From an uncultured Eubacterium sp. (GTDB lineage Bacteria; Bacillota_A; Clostridia; Lachnospirales; Lachnospiraceae): a DNA stretch of 8,567 nt. This document shows, piece by piece, positions 1,874 through 8,567 of this stretch (position 1 is the first letter of the stretch; every line of letters starts with the position of its first letter). The stretch spans positions 1 through 8,567 of the forward strand of contig CAOXUF010000076.1 in assembly GCA_948560485.1 (NCBI GenBank), given 5' to 3'. Below the pieces are notes generated by a model. The model was given only the letters and a program-made list of their open reading frames with translations. It was not told the origin of the DNA and ran no database searches. The translations under genes were made by a program, and so were the position numbers.

Positions 1874-2824
1874 ATGAGTAAAAATCAAACAATGCCAAAC
1901 ATTGCACTTGGTGCATGGTCCTGGGGCGCAGGGGCAGCAGGCGGGGATCAGGTTTTTGGAAACCATTTATTTGAGGAAGATTTGAAACTGGTTTTTGATG
2001 CTGCTATGGAACATGGATTACATCTTTGGGATACTGCGGCTGTATATGGTGAAGGTACTTCCGAGCGGATACTTGGAAATTTTGTGAAAGAGATTGACCG
2101 TAACGATGTGATACTCTCCACAAAGTTTACACCACAGATTGCTGGTGATTCACCGGATGCTATGCAGGAAATGTTAGACGGGAGCAGGGAAAGGCTCCAT
2201 GCAGATGTGATTGATATTTACTGGATTCATAATCCGATGAATGTGGAAAAATGGACGCCGGATTTAATCCCGCTGGCAAAAAGCGGACAGATTAAGACAA
2301 TCGGCGTTTCCAACCACAACCTTGCGGAGATAAAAAGGGCAAATGAAATTCTTGCTGCAGAGGGTCTGAAGATTTCTGCGGTGCAGAACCATTACAGTCT
2401 GTTACACCGTTCTTCGGAGCGTGCAGGTATCCTTGATTATTGTAAGGAGAATGGAATTACATTCTATTCCTATATGGTGCTGGAACAGGGAGCACTTACC
2501 GGACGGTACAGTGAGGAAAATCCATTCCCGGAGGGAACCGGGAGGGGAGAGGCGTATAACCCACATTTGAAAGAACTGACAGCATTGATTGATGAGCTGA
2601 GAATGATAGGGACACGTTTTGATGCCAGTCCCGCACAGGTTGCCACGGCGTGGGCGATTGCAAAGGGGACTCTGCCAATAATCGGGGTAACAAAGGTTAG
2701 CCAGGTGGAAGAAGCGGCAGGAGCAGCACAGATTAGATTGAATGCAGAGGAAGTTAGCCGTTTGGAAAAACTGGGTGATGAAACAGGTGTCAGGACACTG
2801 AGGGAATGGGAAAAGGAGATGTAA
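1874..2824 (+). CDS. Aldo/keto reductase (cytoplasmic, NADPH-type)
   Basis: A 316-residue TIM-barrel oxidoreductase of normal family length, with AGGAGG at 1862-1867 and a 6-nt spacer to ATG. The catalytic tetrad is complete: Asp53 and Tyr58 in WDTAAVYGEG, Lys84 in LSTKF, and His119 in YWIHNP. GVSNHN (residues ~153-158) and the C-terminal IIGVTKVSQVEEA stretch form the nicotinamide and phosphate-binding sites typical of AKRs. It should reduce aldehydes or ketones to alcohols with NAD(P)H; the substrate cannot be read from sequence. It belongs to the longer 'general stress protein/YhdN-like' branch and is not a close relative of the two exported reductases at 5537 and 7065, which use a DTAYMY..NE/LLHHP pattern. 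It leads a tight run with the acetyltransferase (3-bp gap) and the iron alcohol dehydrogenase, so co-transcription is likely. There is no signal peptide. Confidence 0.9.
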   Translation: MSKNQTMPNIALGAWSWGAGAAGGDQVFGNHLFEEDLKLVFDAAMEHGLHLWDTAAVYGEGTSERILGNFVKEIDRNDVILSTKFTPQIAGDSPDAMQEMLDGSRERLHADVIDIYWIHNPMNVEKWTPDLIPLAKSGQIKTIGVSNHNLAEIKRANEILAAEGLKISAVQNHYSLLHRSSERAGILDYCKENGITFYSYMVLEQGALTGRYSEENPFPEGTGRGEAYNPHLKELTALIDELRMIGTRFDASPAQVATAWAIAKGTLPIIGVTKVSQVEEAAGAAQIRLNAEEVSRLEKLGDETGVRTLREWEKEM

Positions 2825-2827
2825 ACT

Positions 2828-3409
2828 TTGACAGTAAATGACGTGATAGATGGTTTTACGGAGGACGCAGAGGATAATCCGAAGCGTGATGCCTATGCAG
2901 ATATTCTCTTTCAGGAAGCCATCCGCATTGGCATGGAGCTGAATAACCAGTACCATACACCGGAAGAAATCAGGGAGATAATGGGCAGGCTGACAGGAAA
3001 AAAGGTTGATGACAGTTTTCGGATGTTCCCACCGTTTTACACCGATTTTGGAAAGAACATTACCATTGGCAGGGATGTCTTTATCAATTCCGGCTGTCAT
3101 TTTCAGGATCAGGGAGGGATTACCATTGGTGACGGTTCTCTGATCGGACACAATGTGGTGCTGGCAACAATTAACCATGATTTGAGTCCTTTGAGAAACA
3201 GGGAAAACCATTATGCACCGATTGTGATAGAGGACCATGTCTGGATTGGTTCCAATGCAACAATCCTGCCGGGAGTTACGGTAGGCAGATGGTCTGTGGT
3301 GGCAGCGGGAGCCGTCGTCAGCAAAGATGTAGAGGCATTTACGATTGTCGGAGGTGTTCCGGCAAAGGAGATTCGCAAAATTAAAGATGGAGGAAAACAA
3401 CATGAATGA
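2828..3409 (+). CDS. Sugar/maltose-type O-acetyltransferase, left-handed beta-helix
   Basis: A 193-residue member of the hexapeptide-repeat acetyltransferases (Maa/LacA/NodL type). It has an N-terminal helical cap (residues 1-60), then beta-helix repeats such as ITIGRDVFINSGC, ITIGDGSLIGHNV, VWIGSNATILPGV and TVGRWSVVAAGAV. The end is the usual GGVPAKEIRKI. The catalytic histidine should be His117 in TINHDLSP. The family moves acetyl from acetyl-CoA to a hydroxyl on a sugar or related acceptor, acting as a trimer in the cytoplasm; the acceptor here is unknown. I chose the TTG at 2828 because AGGAG lies 9 nt upstream, the protein then has full family length, and no better in-frame ATG precedes the cap. 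It starts 3 bp after the reductase stop and overlaps the next gene by 8 bp, so it is translationally linked to both. Confidence 0.88.
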   Translation: MTVNDVIDGFTEDAEDNPKRDAYADILFQEAIRIGMELNNQYHTPEEIREIMGRLTGKKVDDSFRMFPPFYTDFGKNITIGRDVFINSGCHFQDQGGITIGDGSLIGHNVVLATINHDLSPLRNRENHYAPIVIEDHVWIGSNATILPGVTVGRWSVVAAGAVVSKDVEAFTIVGGVPAKEIRKIKDGGKQHE

Positions 3410-4574
3410 TTTTATTTTTCACAACCCGGATAAAGTGTATTTTGGAAAAAACCAGATGGAGCATTTGCCAGAGGAATTACTGAAGTTTGGCAAAAAAGTA
3501 CTTCTGGTGTATGGTGGTGGTTCCATCAGAAAAAATGGATTGTATGATACGGTAACAGGTCTTATGAAAGAGAACGGTATTGAGTTTTTTGAACTTTCCG
3601 GTGTTGAGCCAAATCCGAGACATTCCACTGCAAATAGAGGCGCCCAAATCTGCAAAACAGAAAATATTGACGTCATTCTTGCTGTGGGTGGCGGCTCTAC
3701 AATTGACTGTGCCAAAGGCGTTGCTGCTGCGGCTCTTACGGAGGATGGGGATGTATGGCCACTGGTATCCGGCGGTACATGGGTCATGCAGGCGCTTCCT
3801 TTGATTGCTGTCCTTACCAATGCGGCAACAGGTTCTGAGATGGATGCATGGGCAGTTATTTCTAACATGGATACGAATGAAAAAATTGGCTTGGGTGGGG
3901 ATGCCCTGATTCCGAGAGTGGCATTTGAAAATCCGGAGTATAGTTATTCCCTGCCAACCTATCAGACGGCATGCGGCGCTTTTGATATTTTCAATCATGT
4001 GCTGGATAATTATTATCTTGCCGGGGATGCCACTTTTGACATGGTGTTGGAACTTCAGGAGGCAGTGATGCGTGCGGTAGTAAAATGGACGCCGGTTGCC
4101 ATGAAAGAGCCGGAAAACTATGAGGCAAGGGCAAATCTGATGTGGGCGTCTTCCATGGCGCTGAATTCCATACTGGATGCGGGAACGGTTCATGGATGTG
4201 CCTGCCACGCAATGGAGCATGAACTTTCTGCATATTATGACATCACACATGGTCATGGTCTCGCTATTTTGACACCACGCTGGCTGACTTACATTTTGAA
4301 TGAAGATACAGCACCTGCGATTTACCGTCTGGGTACAAAAGTATTTGGAGTGGAAGAAGGACTTGAGGTGATAGAGGGAGCGGAAAAAGCGATATCAGCA
4401 GTATCTGATTTCTGCTTTAAGACGTTGGAGTTAAAAGAGACCCTGTCCGAGCTGGATATTGACAGCACCCGCTTTAAGGCGATGGCAGAGCATGCCTGCA
4501 TGGGCGGTGTCATAACGGGACCTGTGAATTTGGCGCCGGAGGATGTGGAGAAAATATATCAGATGTGTTTGTAA
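3402..4574 (+). CDS. Iron-type alcohol dehydrogenase, butanol dehydrogenase/YqhD class
   Basis: 390 residues from the ATG at 3402, which has GGAGG at 3389-3393 and an 8-nt spacer. An in-frame ATG 57 bp upstream lies inside the acetyltransferase gene and lacks a good site, so I reject it. The start MNDFIFHNPDKVYFGK is the family's usual N-terminus. The nucleotide-binding GGGS (38-41) and GGGSTIDCAKG (96-106) are present. All four metal ligands can be placed: Asp195 and His199 in AFDIFNHVLDNYY, His269 in CHAMEHELSAYY, and His283 in ITHGHG. Members reduce aldehydes (butyraldehyde and similar) to alcohols, mostly with NADPH and an Fe2+ or Zn2+ ion, in the cytoplasm. Paired with the aldo/keto reductase it suggests aldehyde disposal or fermentation-end alcohol formation. 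Substrate and cofactor preference are inferred from the subfamily. Confidence 0.92.
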   Translation: MNDFIFHNPDKVYFGKNQMEHLPEELLKFGKKVLLVYGGGSIRKNGLYDTVTGLMKENGIEFFELSGVEPNPRHSTANRGAQICKTENIDVILAVGGGSTIDCAKGVAAAALTEDGDVWPLVSGGTWVMQALPLIAVLTNAATGSEMDAWAVISNMDTNEKIGLGGDALIPRVAFENPEYSYSLPTYQTACGAFDIFNHVLDNYYLAGDATFDMVLELQEAVMRAVVKWTPVAMKEPENYEARANLMWASSMALNSILDAGTVHGCACHAMEHELSAYYDITHGHGLAILTPRWLTYILNEDTAPAIYRLGTKVFGVEEGLEVIEGAEKAISAVSDFCFKTLELKETLSELDIDSTRFKAMAEHACMGGVITGPVNLAPEDVEKIYQMCL

Positions 4575-4637: not shown

Positions 4638-5225
4638 ATGAAAGTATTAGGTATTAACGGCAGTGCCAGAAAAGACGGAAATACTGCCATTATTATGAAT
4701 AAGGTATTTGAGGAATTAAATAAGCAGGGAATAGAGACGGAACTGGTACAGTTTGCGGGGCAGGTCATCGAACCGTGTAAAGCATGCTGGGCATGTGGAG
4801 AACAGAAAAACTGTGTCCACAGGAAGGACATTTTTCGGGAAACCTTCGACAAGATGATGGAGGCAGATGGAATTTTACTCGGTTCTCCTGTCTATTCGGC
4901 AAACATTTCTGCAAGTATGCAGGCATTTCTGGAACGGGCAGCAGTGGTTAGTGACATGAACCGTGGCAGTCTGAACAATAAGTACAAGGTCGGGGCTTCC
5001 GTGGTGGCACTTCGCAGGGGAGGGGCATTATCGGCAGTGGATGCCATGAATCACTTTTTTATGAATCAGGAGATGATTATAGTAGGTTCAACATACTGGA
5101 ATATGGTATATGGCCAGATGCTGGGGGATGTGCTGAAGGATGAGGAAGGACTTCAGAATATGCAGAATCTCGGTGAGAATATGGCTTATGTACTGCACAA
5201 ATTAAATGATAACAAATCAAATTAA
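4638..5225 (+). CDS. Iron-sulfur flavoprotein / NADPH-dependent FMN reductase family
   Basis: 195 residues with a flavodoxin-like fold. The FMN phosphate loop is INGSARKDGNT (6-16), and the flavin-ring contact region is LLGSPVYSANIS (80-91). Between them is a compact cysteine cluster, Cys47-x2-Cys50-x2-Cys53-x5-Cys59. This spacing is the CX2CX2CX4-7C pattern that binds a [4Fe-4S] centre in archaeal iron-sulfur flavoproteins (Isf), so I expect both FMN and a cluster. Such proteins act as cytoplasmic electron carriers, or reduce O2, peroxide or quinone-like substrates; the partner here is unknown. There is no signal peptide. GCGAGG 7 nt before the ATG is an acceptable ribosome site. The gene follows the alcohol dehydrogenase by 63 bp that hold the long hairpin, so it is either the last gene of that operon with separate tuning or a unit of its own. 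Confidence 0.85.
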   Translation: MKVLGINGSARKDGNTAIIMNKVFEELNKQGIETELVQFAGQVIEPCKACWACGEQKNCVHRKDIFRETFDKMMEADGILLGSPVYSANISASMQAFLERAAVVSDMNRGSLNNKYKVGASVVALRRGGALSAVDAMNHFFMNQEMIIVGSTYWNMVYGQMLGDVLKDEEGLQNMQNLGENMAYVLHKLNDNKSN

Positions 5226-5536: not shown

Positions 5537-7030
5537 ATGAAAAGATTATGCAGTATGATCCTATTGCTTGCTGTTCTGACCTGTCTGACAGCATGTGGAA
5601 AGGGCAGTCAGACAGGACAGACGGATGCAAATAGTGGTGCAACAAATAAGAAGGAGGAAAGTGTCATGAACCAGAGTGGACAGTCAAAGGAAAACACAAA
5701 TATTTTAGTGGCTTATTTTTCCTGCACAGGGACAACAAAGCCTTTGGCAGAGTACGCAGCAGAGTATTTGAATGCGGATTTGTATGAAATTAAGGCAGAA
5801 ACTCCATATACCAGTGCGGATTTGGATTACAATGCATCCGGTTCCAGGGCGAATAAAGAACAGGATGATGCCAGTGCCAGACCAGCGATTTCTGGTAAAG
5901 TAGAGGATATGGAGCAGTATACTACCGTGGTGTTGGCATATCCCATATGGTGGGGGCAGGCGCCGAGAATCATCAGTACCTTTTTAGAGAGTTATGATTT
6001 CAACGGAAAAACGATTGTGCCGTTCTGTACCTCCCACAGCAGCAGAATTGGTTCCAGTGATACGAATCTGCATTCCCTTGTGGATGACAGTGTGGAATGG
6101 AAAGAGGGGAAACGCTTTGCAGCCGGCACATCAAAGAGTGAGATTACCGGGTGGCTGGATGAGATGGAGGTTCAGCCCTTTGTGGAAGAAAACAGTGGAA
6201 AAGAGACAGCGGAGAGAGTCTTTGATTTTGAGAAAAGAACAGTCACATTAAACAGTGGTTATGAGATGCCGCTGAACGGACTTGGTACTTACAGCTTAGA
6301 GGACGAGACTTGTGTTTCCTCTGTTTCGGAGGCATTAAAGCGTGGTGTAAGGCTCATTGATACTGCTTATATGTACCACAACGAGGGAGAAGTCGGCAGG
6401 GCAGTCCGAGATTCCGACATTCCCCGTGAGGAAATTTTTGTGATAACAAAGCTGTACCCCAATCAGTTCTCCGAACCGGAAAAAGCCATTGATGAGGCAA
6501 TGGAAAAGCTGGATATCGAATATATTGACATGATGCTTTTACACCATCCCGGAACGGATGATGTCAAGGCATATAAAGCAATGGAAAAGGCAGTAGAGGA
6601 TGGGAAAATCCGTTCCATCGGATTATCCAACTGGTATGTGGAGGAACTGGAAGAATTTCTGCCACAGGTCAGTATCACTCCGGCACTGGTACAGAATGAA
6701 ATCCATCCGTATTATCAGGAAAACGATGTGATTCCGTATATTCAGAAACTTGGCATTGTGGTACAGGGTTGGTATCCTCTTGGTGGCAGGGGACATACGG
6801 CAGAACTGTTAGGAGATGAAACGATTTCTGCTATTGCAAAAGCACATGGAAAGTCATCGGCACAGGTAATCCTTCGTTGGAATCTGCAAAAAGGCGTGGT
6901 GGTGATACCGGGGTCAAGCAATCCCGACCATATACAGGAGAATACAGAATTGTATGATTTTGAACTGTCGGATGAGGAAATGGATAAAATCAACGCACTT
7001 GACCGGAATGAGAAACATGACTGGTATTAA
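5537..7030 (+). CDS. Exported lipoprotein: flavodoxin domain fused to aldo/keto reductase
   Basis: 497 residues; GAAAGGATG precedes the ATG at 5537. Residues 1-20 are a lipoprotein signal with lipobox LTAC (Cys20 lipidated), then a polar linker to about residue 52. Residues 53-212 are an FMN flavodoxin domain: strand ILVAYF, phosphate loop SCTGTTK (62-68), YPIWWGQAP (135-143) and FLESYDFNGKTIVPFCTS (149-166). Residues ~229-497 are a complete aldo/keto reductase with tetrad Asp275, Tyr280, Lys305 and His336, plus the cofactor stretch VVVIPGSSNPDHIQEN. Both halves keep their key residues. A fusion of an FMN electron carrier with an NAD(P)H reductase, anchored outside the membrane, is odd because NAD(P)H is not normally available there. 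It may act as a surface reductase fed by a membrane partner, or be made partly in the cytoplasm from the internal start at 5666. It is followed 34 bp later by a module-swapped paralog. The domain calls are firm; role and topology are inferred. Confidence 0.9.
   Translation: MKRLCSMILLLAVLTCLTACGKGSQTGQTDANSGATNKKEESVMNQSGQSKENTNILVAYFSCTGTTKPLAEYAAEYLNADLYEIKAETPYTSADLDYNASGSRANKEQDDASARPAISGKVEDMEQYTTVVLAYPIWWGQAPRIISTFLESYDFNGKTIVPFCTSHSSRIGSSDTNLHSLVDDSVEWKEGKRFAAGTSKSEITGWLDEMEVQPFVEENSGKETAERVFDFEKRTVTLNSGYEMPLNGLGTYSLEDETCVSSVSEALKRGVRLIDTAYMYHNEGEVGRAVRDSDIPREEIFVITKLYPNQFSEPEKAIDEAMEKLDIEYIDMMLLHHPGTDDVKAYKAMEKAVEDGKIRSIGLSNWYVEELEEFLPQVSITPALVQNEIHPYYQENDVIPYIQKLGIVVQGWYPLGGRGHTAELLGDETISAIAKAHGKSSAQVILRWNLQKGVVVIPGSSNPDHIQENTELYDFELSDEEMDKINALDRNEKHDWY
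5651..5668 (+). promoter_or_regulatory. Internal ribosome site and in-frame ATG (codon 44) of the lipoprotein gene
   Basis: AAGGAGG (5651-5657), then 8 nt, then ATG (5666-5668), in frame with the lipoprotein gene as Met44. This ribosome site is stronger than the one at the annotated start. Initiation here would skip the signal peptide and lipobox and give a 454-residue cytoplasmic flavodoxin-reductase starting MNQSGQSKENTNILVAYF. It may be a fossil of an ancestral start or a live second start. The Lys-Lys-Glu-Glu codons could also create it by chance. Confidence 0.45.
6221..7030 (+). repeat. Aldo/keto reductase module, copy 1 of a direct duplication
   Basis: This 810-bp stretch (residues 229-497 of the lipoprotein) recurs as 7449-8258 at a constant offset of 1,228 bp. 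The two protein copies align with no gaps, 204 identical of 267 residues by hand count (residues 231-497). Several DNA runs, such as that around 6330-6355, are nearly identical. Both end in the same KHDWY and stop. Confidence 0.85.
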
Positions 7031-7064: not shown

Positions 7065-8258
7065 ATGAATCGGATACGGAAAATAATGGCTTTGCTGCTT
7101 GTGGCAATGATGGCAGTCAGTCCGCTGTCAGGGCGGGAGGTAATGGCAGCGAAAGCAAAGAACAGTAAAGTAACATTAAAAATCGGTAAAACAAATTATA
7201 CAAAGAAAACCTGTCAGTTAGTAAAAGGAGCAAAAGCCACGATTACAGTAAAGGCAGGTAACATAAAAGGCAAAAAGAAGATAAAATATACTTCTTCCAA
7301 TCAAAAGGCCGCCTCCGTCAGTACGAAGGGAGTTGTAAAGGCAAAGAAAAAAGGAACAGCCAAAATCAAAGTCACTGTTATATATGGCAGGAAAAAAGTA
7401 AGTTCGTGGCTGAAAATAAAGGTTACAAAGAAAGTGAAGTCCCCGGTTTTCAACTTCAAAAAGAAGACGGTAAAATTAAACAGCGGCTATAGTATGCCGC
7501 TTAATGGAATCGGGACATACAGTCTGGAGGATGATGTATGCGTGAGGTCTGTATCGGAGGCATTAAAGCGTGGCGTAAGGCTGATTGATACCGCCTATAT
7601 GTATGATAATGAAAAAGAGGTTGGAAAAGCGGTCAGGGAATCCGGAATACCGAGAGGAGAAATTTTTGTGACCACAAAGTTATATCCGGATCAGTATGAC
7701 AACCCGGAAAAAGCAATCAATGATTCTCTGAAGCGATTGGATATCGGCTACATAGACCTCCTGCTTTTACACCATCCGGGCGAGAATGATGTCAAAGCAT
7801 ACAAGGCAATGGAGAAAGCGGTCAGACAGAGGAAAGTCCGTTCCATCGGTCTGTCGAACTGGTATATTGAAGAACTGCAGGAATTTCTGCCACAGGTAAC
7901 AATCACTCCGGCAGTGGTTCAGAATGAGATTCATCCATACTATCAGGAAAACAAAGTGATTGATTATGTTCACAGCCTGGGGATTGTCATGGAAGGCTGG
8001 TATCCTTTTGGCGGGAGAGGTTACACCAAAGAGCTGCTCTCTGATAAAACCATAGCAAAGATTGCAAAGGCACATGGTAAATCAGTGGCACAGGTAATAC
8101 TCCGTTGGAATCTGCAAAAAGGTGTCGTAGTCATTCCGGGTTCCAGCAATCCGGCACATATACAGGAGAATACGGAAATTTACGATTTTACACTGAGTAA
8201 AAAAGAAATGAAACAGATAAATAAATTGAATCGTGATGAAAAACATGATTGGTATTAA
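7065..8258 (+). CDS. Secreted Ig-like domain fused to aldo/keto reductase
   Basis: 397 residues, with AAGGGGG at 7051-7057 before the ATG and 34 bp after the previous stop, so likely one transcript. Residues 1-29 form a Sec signal (MNRIRK, hydrophobic MALLLVAMMAV, probable cleavage near VMA-A28/29); there is no lipobox. Residues ~33-122 are a lysine-rich bacterial Ig-like (BIG2-type) domain, with the family's 'YTSSNQKAASVSTKGVVKAK' (75-94) and GTAKIKVT. Residues ~129-397 are an aldo/keto reductase with tetrad Asp175, Tyr180, Lys205 and His236, each exactly 100 less than in the gene before it. The lysine-rich Ig-like domain could bind the anionic cell wall or polysaccharide and hold the enzyme at the surface. 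No LPXTG anchor is seen; the protein ends in KHDWY. As with its neighbour, the source of NAD(P)H outside the cell is unexplained. The Ig-like function is inferred. Confidence 0.88.
   Translation: MNRIRKIMALLLVAMMAVSPLSGREVMAAKAKNSKVTLKIGKTNYTKKTCQLVKGAKATITVKAGNIKGKKKIKYTSSNQKAASVSTKGVVKAKKKGTAKIKVTVIYGRKKVSSWLKIKVTKKVKSPVFNFKKKTVKLNSGYSMPLNGIGTYSLEDDVCVRSVSEALKRGVRLIDTAYMYDNEKEVGKAVRESGIPRGEIFVTTKLYPDQYDNPEKAINDSLKRLDIGYIDLLLLHHPGENDVKAYKAMEKAVRQRKVRSIGLSNWYIEELQEFLPQVTITPAVVQNEIHPYYQENKVIDYVHSLGIVMEGWYPFGGRGYTKELLSDKTIAKIAKAHGKSVAQVILRWNLQKGVVVIPGSSNPAHIQENTEIYDFTLSKKEMKQINKLNRDEKHDWY
7449..8258 (+). repeat. Aldo/keto reductase module, copy 2 of a direct duplication
   Basis: Second copy of the module at 6221-7030, in the same orientation and of equal length. 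Homology starts near residue 129 (FNFKKKTVKLNSGY), just after the Ig-like domain. The sequence upstream of that point is unrelated to the flavodoxin of copy 1, so the junction marks the swap of N-terminal modules. Confidence 0.85.
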
Positions 8259-8330
8259 AAAGTCGATTAAATGCATTGACAAAGGAATCCTATGGTTATG
8301 CCTTACATAAACGAACAGGAGGCTGATTTT

Positions 8331-8567
8331 ATGCAGAAATTTAGAAGGGGTAAAAAAGGAATGCAGGCAGTAGTCCTGCTGCTTGTATTCAGTCTGTTGA
8401 TTGCCGGATTTTCTATAAACAGTATGGTTTCCAAAGCTGCTGCGAAGGGAAAGAAAACAGTTGCAATCAAAAAGGTGTCATTAAAGATTGGCAAGAAGAA
8501 AATTACCAAAAAAACATACAAAATGAAACCGGGGGAGAAGAAGAGACTCAAAGTCAGTGTCTCTCCT
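8331..8567 (+). CDS. Secreted protein with lysine-rich Ig-like start, 3' end cut by the window
   Basis: 79 codons are visible and the frame is open to the right edge. AGGAGG at 8317-8322 with an 8-nt spacer supports the ATG at 8331. Residues 1-~38 are a Sec signal: basic MQKFRRGKKG, hydrophobic core AVVLLLVFSLLIAGF, and a likely cleavage in the SKAAAKG region. The rest is lysine-rich (VSLKIGKKKITKKTYKMKPG) and parallels the start of the Ig-like domain in the gene before it (VTLKIGKTNYTKKTCQLVKG). It is probably a third member of the exported set. Whether a flavodoxin, a reductase or only Ig-like repeats follow lies outside the window. Confidence 0.75.
   Translation, partial: MQKFRRGKKGMQAVVLLLVFSLLIAGFSINSMVSKAAAKGKKTVAIKKVSLKIGKKKITKKTYKMKPGEKKRLKVSVSP

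Follow-up and report, generated by a model that had tools for sequence, protein, structure and literature searches.

A flavodoxin and an aldo/keto reductase (AKR) are joined in one polypeptide, behind a lipoprotein signal, in a stretch of DNA of 8,567 nucleotides from an uncultured Eubacterium sp. of the Lachnospiraceae (hereafter the window), and the question raised is what such a pair could do outside the cell. Proteins of both kinds normally stay inside the cell, and AKRs are the textbook example of enzymes that draw on the NAD(P)H of the cytosol. The domains, export signals, conservation, and gene context described here are read directly from sequence. The first-pass annotation of this DNA had placed a lipobox (LTAC, with Cys20) before two complete redox domains, which was confirmed by the open reading frame (ORF), a residue-checking script, and Pfam. 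The same script bore out the flavodoxin phosphate loop at residues 62-68 (Ser62-Lys68, SCTGTTK) and the AKR tetrad (Asp275, Tyr280, Lys305, and His336). The features of the protein are:

5537..7030, + strand: lipobox-Flavodoxin_4-AKR fusion, 497 aa (ORF, Pfam domains, residue check)
5537..5596, + strand: lipoprotein signal peptide, residues 1-19 plus Cys20, MKRLCSMILLLAVLTCLTAC (from the translation; rule-based, not SignalP)
5699..6163, + strand: Flavodoxin_4 (PF12682), residues 55-209, with phosphate loop 62-68 (Pfam, 175.2 bits, cut-off 24)
6293..7003, + strand: AKR domain (PF00248, Aldo_ket_red), Pfam residues 253-489 (172.1 bits, cut-off 24)

In an AlphaFold2 model of the fusion (mean pLDDT 82.1, pTM 0.56) residues 17-52 score below 50, and the placement of Flavodoxin_4 relative to the AKR is left undefined. 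Judged by structure, the AKR extends over residues 231-497 approximately, wider than the Pfam match. The flavodoxin half is matched by PDB entry 3klb over residues 54-210, and scores 194.8 bits against NCBIfam NF005501 (PRK07116 flavodoxin), under the curated cut-off of 198. In sequence and fold the AKR half is closest to YvgN, MGS-M4, DkgA, 2,5-DKG reductase, and the trypanosomatid prostaglandin F synthases, the structure comparison covering essentially residues 231-497 only.

The fusion is not a product of chance, since in 37 homologs aligned to it, which are 55-92% identical, the flavodoxin likewise precedes the AKR. An isolated aberrant gene or an assembly artefact was ruled out by the many related proteins, contig stretches, and sampled genomes. 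A protein search returned at least 7,996 significant matches, single-domain relatives included, of which 120 were listed, and scanning genome contigs yielded 122 related stretches, 80 of which were retained. In even samples, relatives were found in 22 of 200 genomes from the family of G004, the closest genome (E 1e-100; three of them the seeds G002, G004, and G006), in 7 of 398 genomes from its phylum (E 1e-90; one a seed), and in 2 of 198 genomes from the order of G009 (both seeds). Named hosts include Anaerostipes butyraticus (locus L075), Bacteroides timonensis, B. faecichinchillae, and Parabacteroides acidifaciens. Judged by its sequence, the fusion is one member of an exported family that is widespread, chiefly among gut Bacillota, with some representatives in Bacteroidota. 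The fusion is thus no rarity: many relatives share the architecture.

Export was called by a simple rule of our own making, not by SignalP. In a 38-row alignment Cys20 is nearly invariant, and an export or anchor signal is found at the N terminus of 78 of the 84 close AKR-domain ORFs (at least 380 bits), 56 of these being lipoboxes and 22 other signals or anchors. Of the six ORFs in which the rule finds no signal, L012 and L098 run into a stretch end, L040 has a lipobox that is plain on inspection, L026 and L046 appear, again on inspection, to have been given the wrong start, and L072 shows no signal. Less related unfused AKR ORFs (below 380 bits, from loci shared with the 84) have no signal in 19 of 21 cases, one of the 19 (L057_4) being a fragment of the exported group. 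The two that carry a lipobox, L100_2 and L107_0, belong to the outgroup of 14 AKRs used below, which is therefore not purely cytosolic. Among the 226 homologs listed, an N-terminal signal or anchor is present in 209 (111 lipoprotein-like, 92 with a Sec or anchor segment, 6 Tat), and the 17 without one have late or truncated starts by eye. A signal was likewise seen by eye in 18 of 21 loci of the Lachnospiraceae sample (L119 and L129 have none; L131 is broken, yet its first piece has a lipobox) and in all 8 ORFs obtained from the phylum sample with the AKR-domain query, two of which come from the seed genome and one of which continues from its signal into an SLH-like stretch.

The kind of signal varies across relatives: Sec with a lipobox, Sec with Big_2, SLH, dockerin, an N-terminal anchor, or twin-arginine (Tat). 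The partner domains are extracellular ones: besides Big_2, there is SLH in 7 of the homologs listed (precomputed table; confirmed for P0120 and P0159), dockerin in L118, P0176, and P0179, and Cu_amine_oxidN1 in L014. The Tat signal (SRRQF) is found in L117 (1498-3105, minus strand), P0121-P0124, P0135, and P0142. A mis-called start was ruled out, as relatives carry these several kinds of signal. TatC is present in G211, the genome of the Tat-type member L117, and in both Bacteroidota genomes searched; it was not found in 14 other family-bearing Bacillota genomes searched, which may be incomplete. This pattern suggests that Sec-type members, including that of G004, might be exported unfolded and loaded with cofactor outside. 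The extracytoplasmic placement proposed by the first-pass annotation is well supported by comparison with the relatives' signals, which make it very likely that the fusion protein is located outside the cell. As the anchors differ among relatives while the reaction centre stays constant, the exported AKR-flavodoxin unit probably does chemistry there. Several export routes have been used, yet all catalytic residues are kept, which suggests that gut bacteria reduce carbonyls outside their cells.

A second start at Met44 (ATG at 5666) would give a form that stays in the cytoplasm and draws on the NAD(P)H there, the exported form then being only part of the product. In the window (5648-5668), AAGGAGG lies 8 bases before this in-frame ATG, and the resulting form would be without a signal peptide; AGGAGG with ATG is also found in L001 and L005, GGAGG with GTG in L039 and L044, and Met44 is the annotated start of two database entries, P0022 and P0024. 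Among 52 lipoprotein-like members, 15, 9, and 3 reach 5, 6, and 7 Shine-Dalgarno bases against an expected 6.7, 2.6, and 0.45, but relatedness among the members means that these are not independent counts, and an excess is also seen in 63 lipoprotein-like control ORFs (8, 3, and 2 versus an expected 5.5, 1.2, and 0.43). Moreover, most of the Bacteroidota members tested have no such site. We consider a dual product improbable.

Within the AKR half the Asp/Tyr/Lys/His tetrad is invariant in all 84 close relatives, a set that includes near relatives and whose members are thus not independent, and also in the 14 outgroup AKRs. Ser364, Gln386, and Trp412, which we take to be nicotinamide-site residues, are each kept in 84/84, and Asn365, usually a nicotinamide contact, is Asn in 71/84 and Cys in 13/84, the latter being a point against the explanation favoured below. 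Since the tetrad is invariant, carbonyl reduction, one of the two roles first proposed, is plausible, and on these residues the AKR half is likely to be an active carbonyl reductase; leads to an electron source come from a few relatives. Alternatively, the domains might have been retained for a binding or structural role outside the cell and not for redox catalysis. No cofactor supply is obvious there, and relatives have Big_2 and SLH as partner domains, both of which are common in binding proteins. This reading is nevertheless highly improbable, given the strict conservation of the tetrad and of the three nicotinamide-site residues, and a phosphate loop that is intact in most homologs (226 matches listed).

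Tyr252, Gly459, and His465 occur together in 84/84 close relatives versus 1/14 outgroup AKRs, and the C-terminal EKHDWY is found in 84/84. The Lys and Arg that form the 2'-phosphate site of NADPH-specific AKRs are not present. Because Gly459 and His465 replace them throughout, the sequence points to NADH, or to no strong preference, and NADPH need not be the cofactor; of the NAD(P)H requirement first proposed, the NADPH part is corrected accordingly. The same trio stands at the same positions in an engineered 2,5-DKG reductase (1m9h; F22Y, K232G, R238H), in which 232 and 238 are aligned, and the match at 22 holds if the first 17 residues align gap-free. That enzyme is a laboratory mutant, reportedly made to accept NADH, whereas the trio is natural in the family. 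YvgN, DkgA, and 2,5-DKG reductase are single-domain enzymes without an export signal. They share with the fusion their sequence, the fold of residues 231-497, and the tetrad; the AKR of the fusion differs in being exported and fused, in having Gly and His for Lys and Arg, and in its EKHDWY end. Against the DkgA model (NCBIfam NF008598, equivalog) it scores 206.5 bits, under the curated cut-off of 425.

The functions of AKR and flavodoxin appear to be linked, because the two are either fused or encoded as separate exported neighbours (e.g., L049, L051, and L065). Fused and unfused forms are mixed across the tree, and supported branches force at least five changes of the fused label; together with the frequent adjacency of the separate forms, this suggests a working partnership and argues against two independent exported activities that happen to share an anchor. 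In the latter case the AKR would use extracellular NADH from lysed cells, or would be a nicotinoprotein whose firmly bound nucleotide cycles between alcohol and carbonyl, and the flavodoxin would trade electrons with flavins or quinones. Several exported members are AKR-only, with no flavodoxin within the stretch covered (e.g., L050, L053, L054, and L075), so that the AKR may not need one; the stretches vary in length, and "no neighbour" often means "not seen". Two lipoproteins (L039:9956-10996 and L044:1497-2537), 94 and 92% identical to the window AKR, have the flavodoxin domain missing between linker and AKR. These also favour independence, as does the finding that no electron carrier is consistently present in genome and locus counts, and we regard separate action as possible, if doubtful. 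The tree leaves a single clade of exported AKRs unproven, with ten outgroup rows beside Bacteroidota on long branches of weak support. The fusion of L036, which is titled Lachnospiraceae, clusters with Bacteroidota, a possible binning error or transfer.

The surroundings of the gene in the window are:

1874..2824, + strand: AKR without export signal, upstream neighbour (Pfam, 196.9 bits)
2828..3409, + strand: hexapeptide acetyltransferase-like neighbour (Pfam)
3345..4574, + strand: iron-containing alcohol dehydrogenase (best NCBIfam model PRK15138, 243.4 bits, under the cut-off of 645)
4638..5225, + strand: FMN_red-family flavoprotein without export signal (Pfam, 107.9 bits)
7065..8258, + strand: sibling with Sec signal, Big_2, and AKR (Pfam, Big_2 36.1 bits, Aldo_ket_red 166.2 bits)
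8292..8567, + strand: probable Big_2-flavodoxin-AKR sibling, start only (92 aa, signal-like N terminus; runs off the window end)

By eye, none of the four upstream neighbours has an export signal. PRK15138 is the model for YqhD, an alcohol dehydrogenase. The sibling at 7065-8258 is whole and exported, belongs to the same tetrad-bearing group, and ends in EKHDWY. The piece at 8292..8567 has no Pfam match over cut-off; its probable assignment is based on visual resemblance to P0049, P0058, and P0099 and on the gene order of L002, where such a trio stands in the same order as in the window (middle gene, Big_2 21.4 bits, cut-off 22.8). Upstream, positions 1303-1590 hold the C-terminal half of Flavodoxin_4 only (profile 81-154), whose best match is an exported flavodoxin, complete in length, of L001 (8058-8666, 152.6 bits); this piece looks like a remnant. 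An ORF open at the window start (1-1038) has a RES-domain match (32.9 bits, cut-off 23.2).

Across 81 loci (the 80 retained stretches and the window), with neighbour clusters named from one representative each, the recurrent neighbours are LysR (40 loci), hexapeptide transferase (29), alpha/beta hydrolase (27), FMN_red (18), and iron-containing alcohol dehydrogenase (14). The LysR genes are on the opposite strand in 39 of 43 copies, and none was seen in the window itself. A YqhD-like iron-containing alcohol dehydrogenase and a DkgA-like AKR are clustered here as in the YqhC-YqhD-DkgA system of E. coli, from which the present loci differ in having LysR-type regulators nearby and an exported AKR. 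In E. coli, YqhD and DkgA are paired under one activator, for aldehydes, and DkgA, unlike YqhD, is dispensable for survival of glutaraldehyde (PMC8262776). Because the E. coli pairing serves aldehydes, reactive carbonyls are favoured by analogy as the substrates; candidates would be reactive aldehydes and diet- or drug-derived ketones.

As for the source of electrons, no recognisable membrane electron carrier is encoded in the window (ORFs, Pfam). Neighbour clusters present in at least 4 loci include two of multi-pass membrane proteins (7 and 4 loci); the 7-locus cluster resembles a MATE-type transporter by eye, and neither resembles an electron carrier. A source is only hinted at, in a few loci, by DUF4405 membrane cytochromes and, in L132 and L005, by flavinylation-type flavodoxin lipoproteins. 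L132 encodes three proteins on one strand: a lipoprotein of the Flavodoxin_4 family that carries the insertion DAVSSASVVT, a protein with DUF4405 (33.9 bits, cut-off 26.7), and the exported AKR. DUF4405 is near an exported AKR in 3 of 92 loci, the others being L136 (1.6 kb away) and L011 (5.5 kb away; 25.9 bits, just under the Pfam cut-off, with Flavodoxin_4 lipoproteins alongside). In L005, the closest locus, the gene is preceded at a distance of 854 bp by one for a flavodoxin lipoprotein that carries the insertion DVDATTSASV. The insertions in L132 and L005 resemble a published [S/T]GA[S/T]-like motif, with Ser standing for its Gly.

In published work on flavinylation, a DUF4405 protein binds heme b and ApbE flavinylates two Flavodoxin_4 proteins at such an insertion (PMC11334425); neither of two flavinylation papers mentions AKRs ("aldo", 0 occurrences). 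The flavinylated proteins are of the same domain family and extracytosolic, and such genes or look-alikes are near a few relatives, but the flavodoxin of the fusion is without the inserted motif. Between strand 1 and helix 1 the insertion is absent, strand 56-60 leading through SCTGTTK to helix 67-78, and with this ordinary phosphate loop FMN would be held non-covalently. Flavinylation at the SGAT of the linker was rejected, as SGAT is found in 13 of 106 fused lipoproteins only. DUF4405 is present in 18/34 family-bearing genomes versus 8/20 others (11/22 versus 8/20 among sampled genomes of the G004 family, and 7/12 further family-bearing genomes) and was not found in G004; on these counts, and those by locus, it was rejected as a universal donor. 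ApbE is present in 14/15 genomes and FMN_bind in 22/22 versus 16/20, but the counts are uninformative since both also serve Rnf-type complexes. L011 also encodes an S-layer-bound flavodoxin (1817-2944; three SLH domains and Flavodoxin_4), beside the flavodoxin lipoproteins and the DUF4405-type gene. In L173 (7174-9363) and L174 (6717-9038), from genomes that also encode an Fld-AKR fusion, DUF4405 is joined to Flavodoxin_4 through an FGE-sulfatase-like domain in a single protein; L176 and L180 have lipoprotein-like FGE-Flavodoxin_4 versions.

The explanation that we favour, and hold to be about evenly poised on the sequence evidence, is a lipid-anchored surface carbonyl reductase of the AKR superfamily with its cofactor recharged via the fused flavodoxin. 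The protein would most likely leave the cell unfolded through Sec, bind FMN and NAD(H) outside, and be fixed by its lipid to the membrane's outer face. There the AKR would reduce carbonyls (aldehyde or ketone) in the cell wall or gut lumen using NADH, and the flavodoxin would most likely recharge it, taking electrons from an extracytosolic chain based on the membrane or on flavins; we infer the NADH use, the carbonyl substrates, and the electron path through FMN. That the flavodoxin feeds the AKR is a tentative proposal. Flavodoxins generally transfer single electrons, while an AKR must receive a hydride from the nicotinamide buried in its barrel, which leaves the step from FMN to NAD putative on chemical grounds. 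A self-contained chain, leading from a membrane cytochrome or flavinylated lipoprotein through the flavodoxin FMN to NAD held captive in the exported AKR, is rather unlikely. If true, it would mean an AKR driven by membrane electrons instead of free NAD(P)H, and fixed variously to membrane, S-layer, or dockerin-bearing assemblies; we know of no earlier AKR driven by membrane electrons.

Among the papers listed by searches of one open-access library, none has an exported AKR-flavodoxin fusion in its title or abstract. The domains are ordinary; their joint, repeated export with intact catalytic sites is, by those titles and abstracts, the new part. It makes the external supply and recharging of FMN and NADH directly testable, and connects aldehyde-type gene clusters to flavin-based extracytosolic electron transfer. 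According to PMC5503946, vesicles of Bacteroides fragilis contain a flavodoxin, which is not equated here with an exported family member. A cyclophilin-like domain (PF18050) is fused to, or encoded beside, exported flavodoxin-AKR proteins in L071, L076, P0120, P0197, and L018 (11428-11955).
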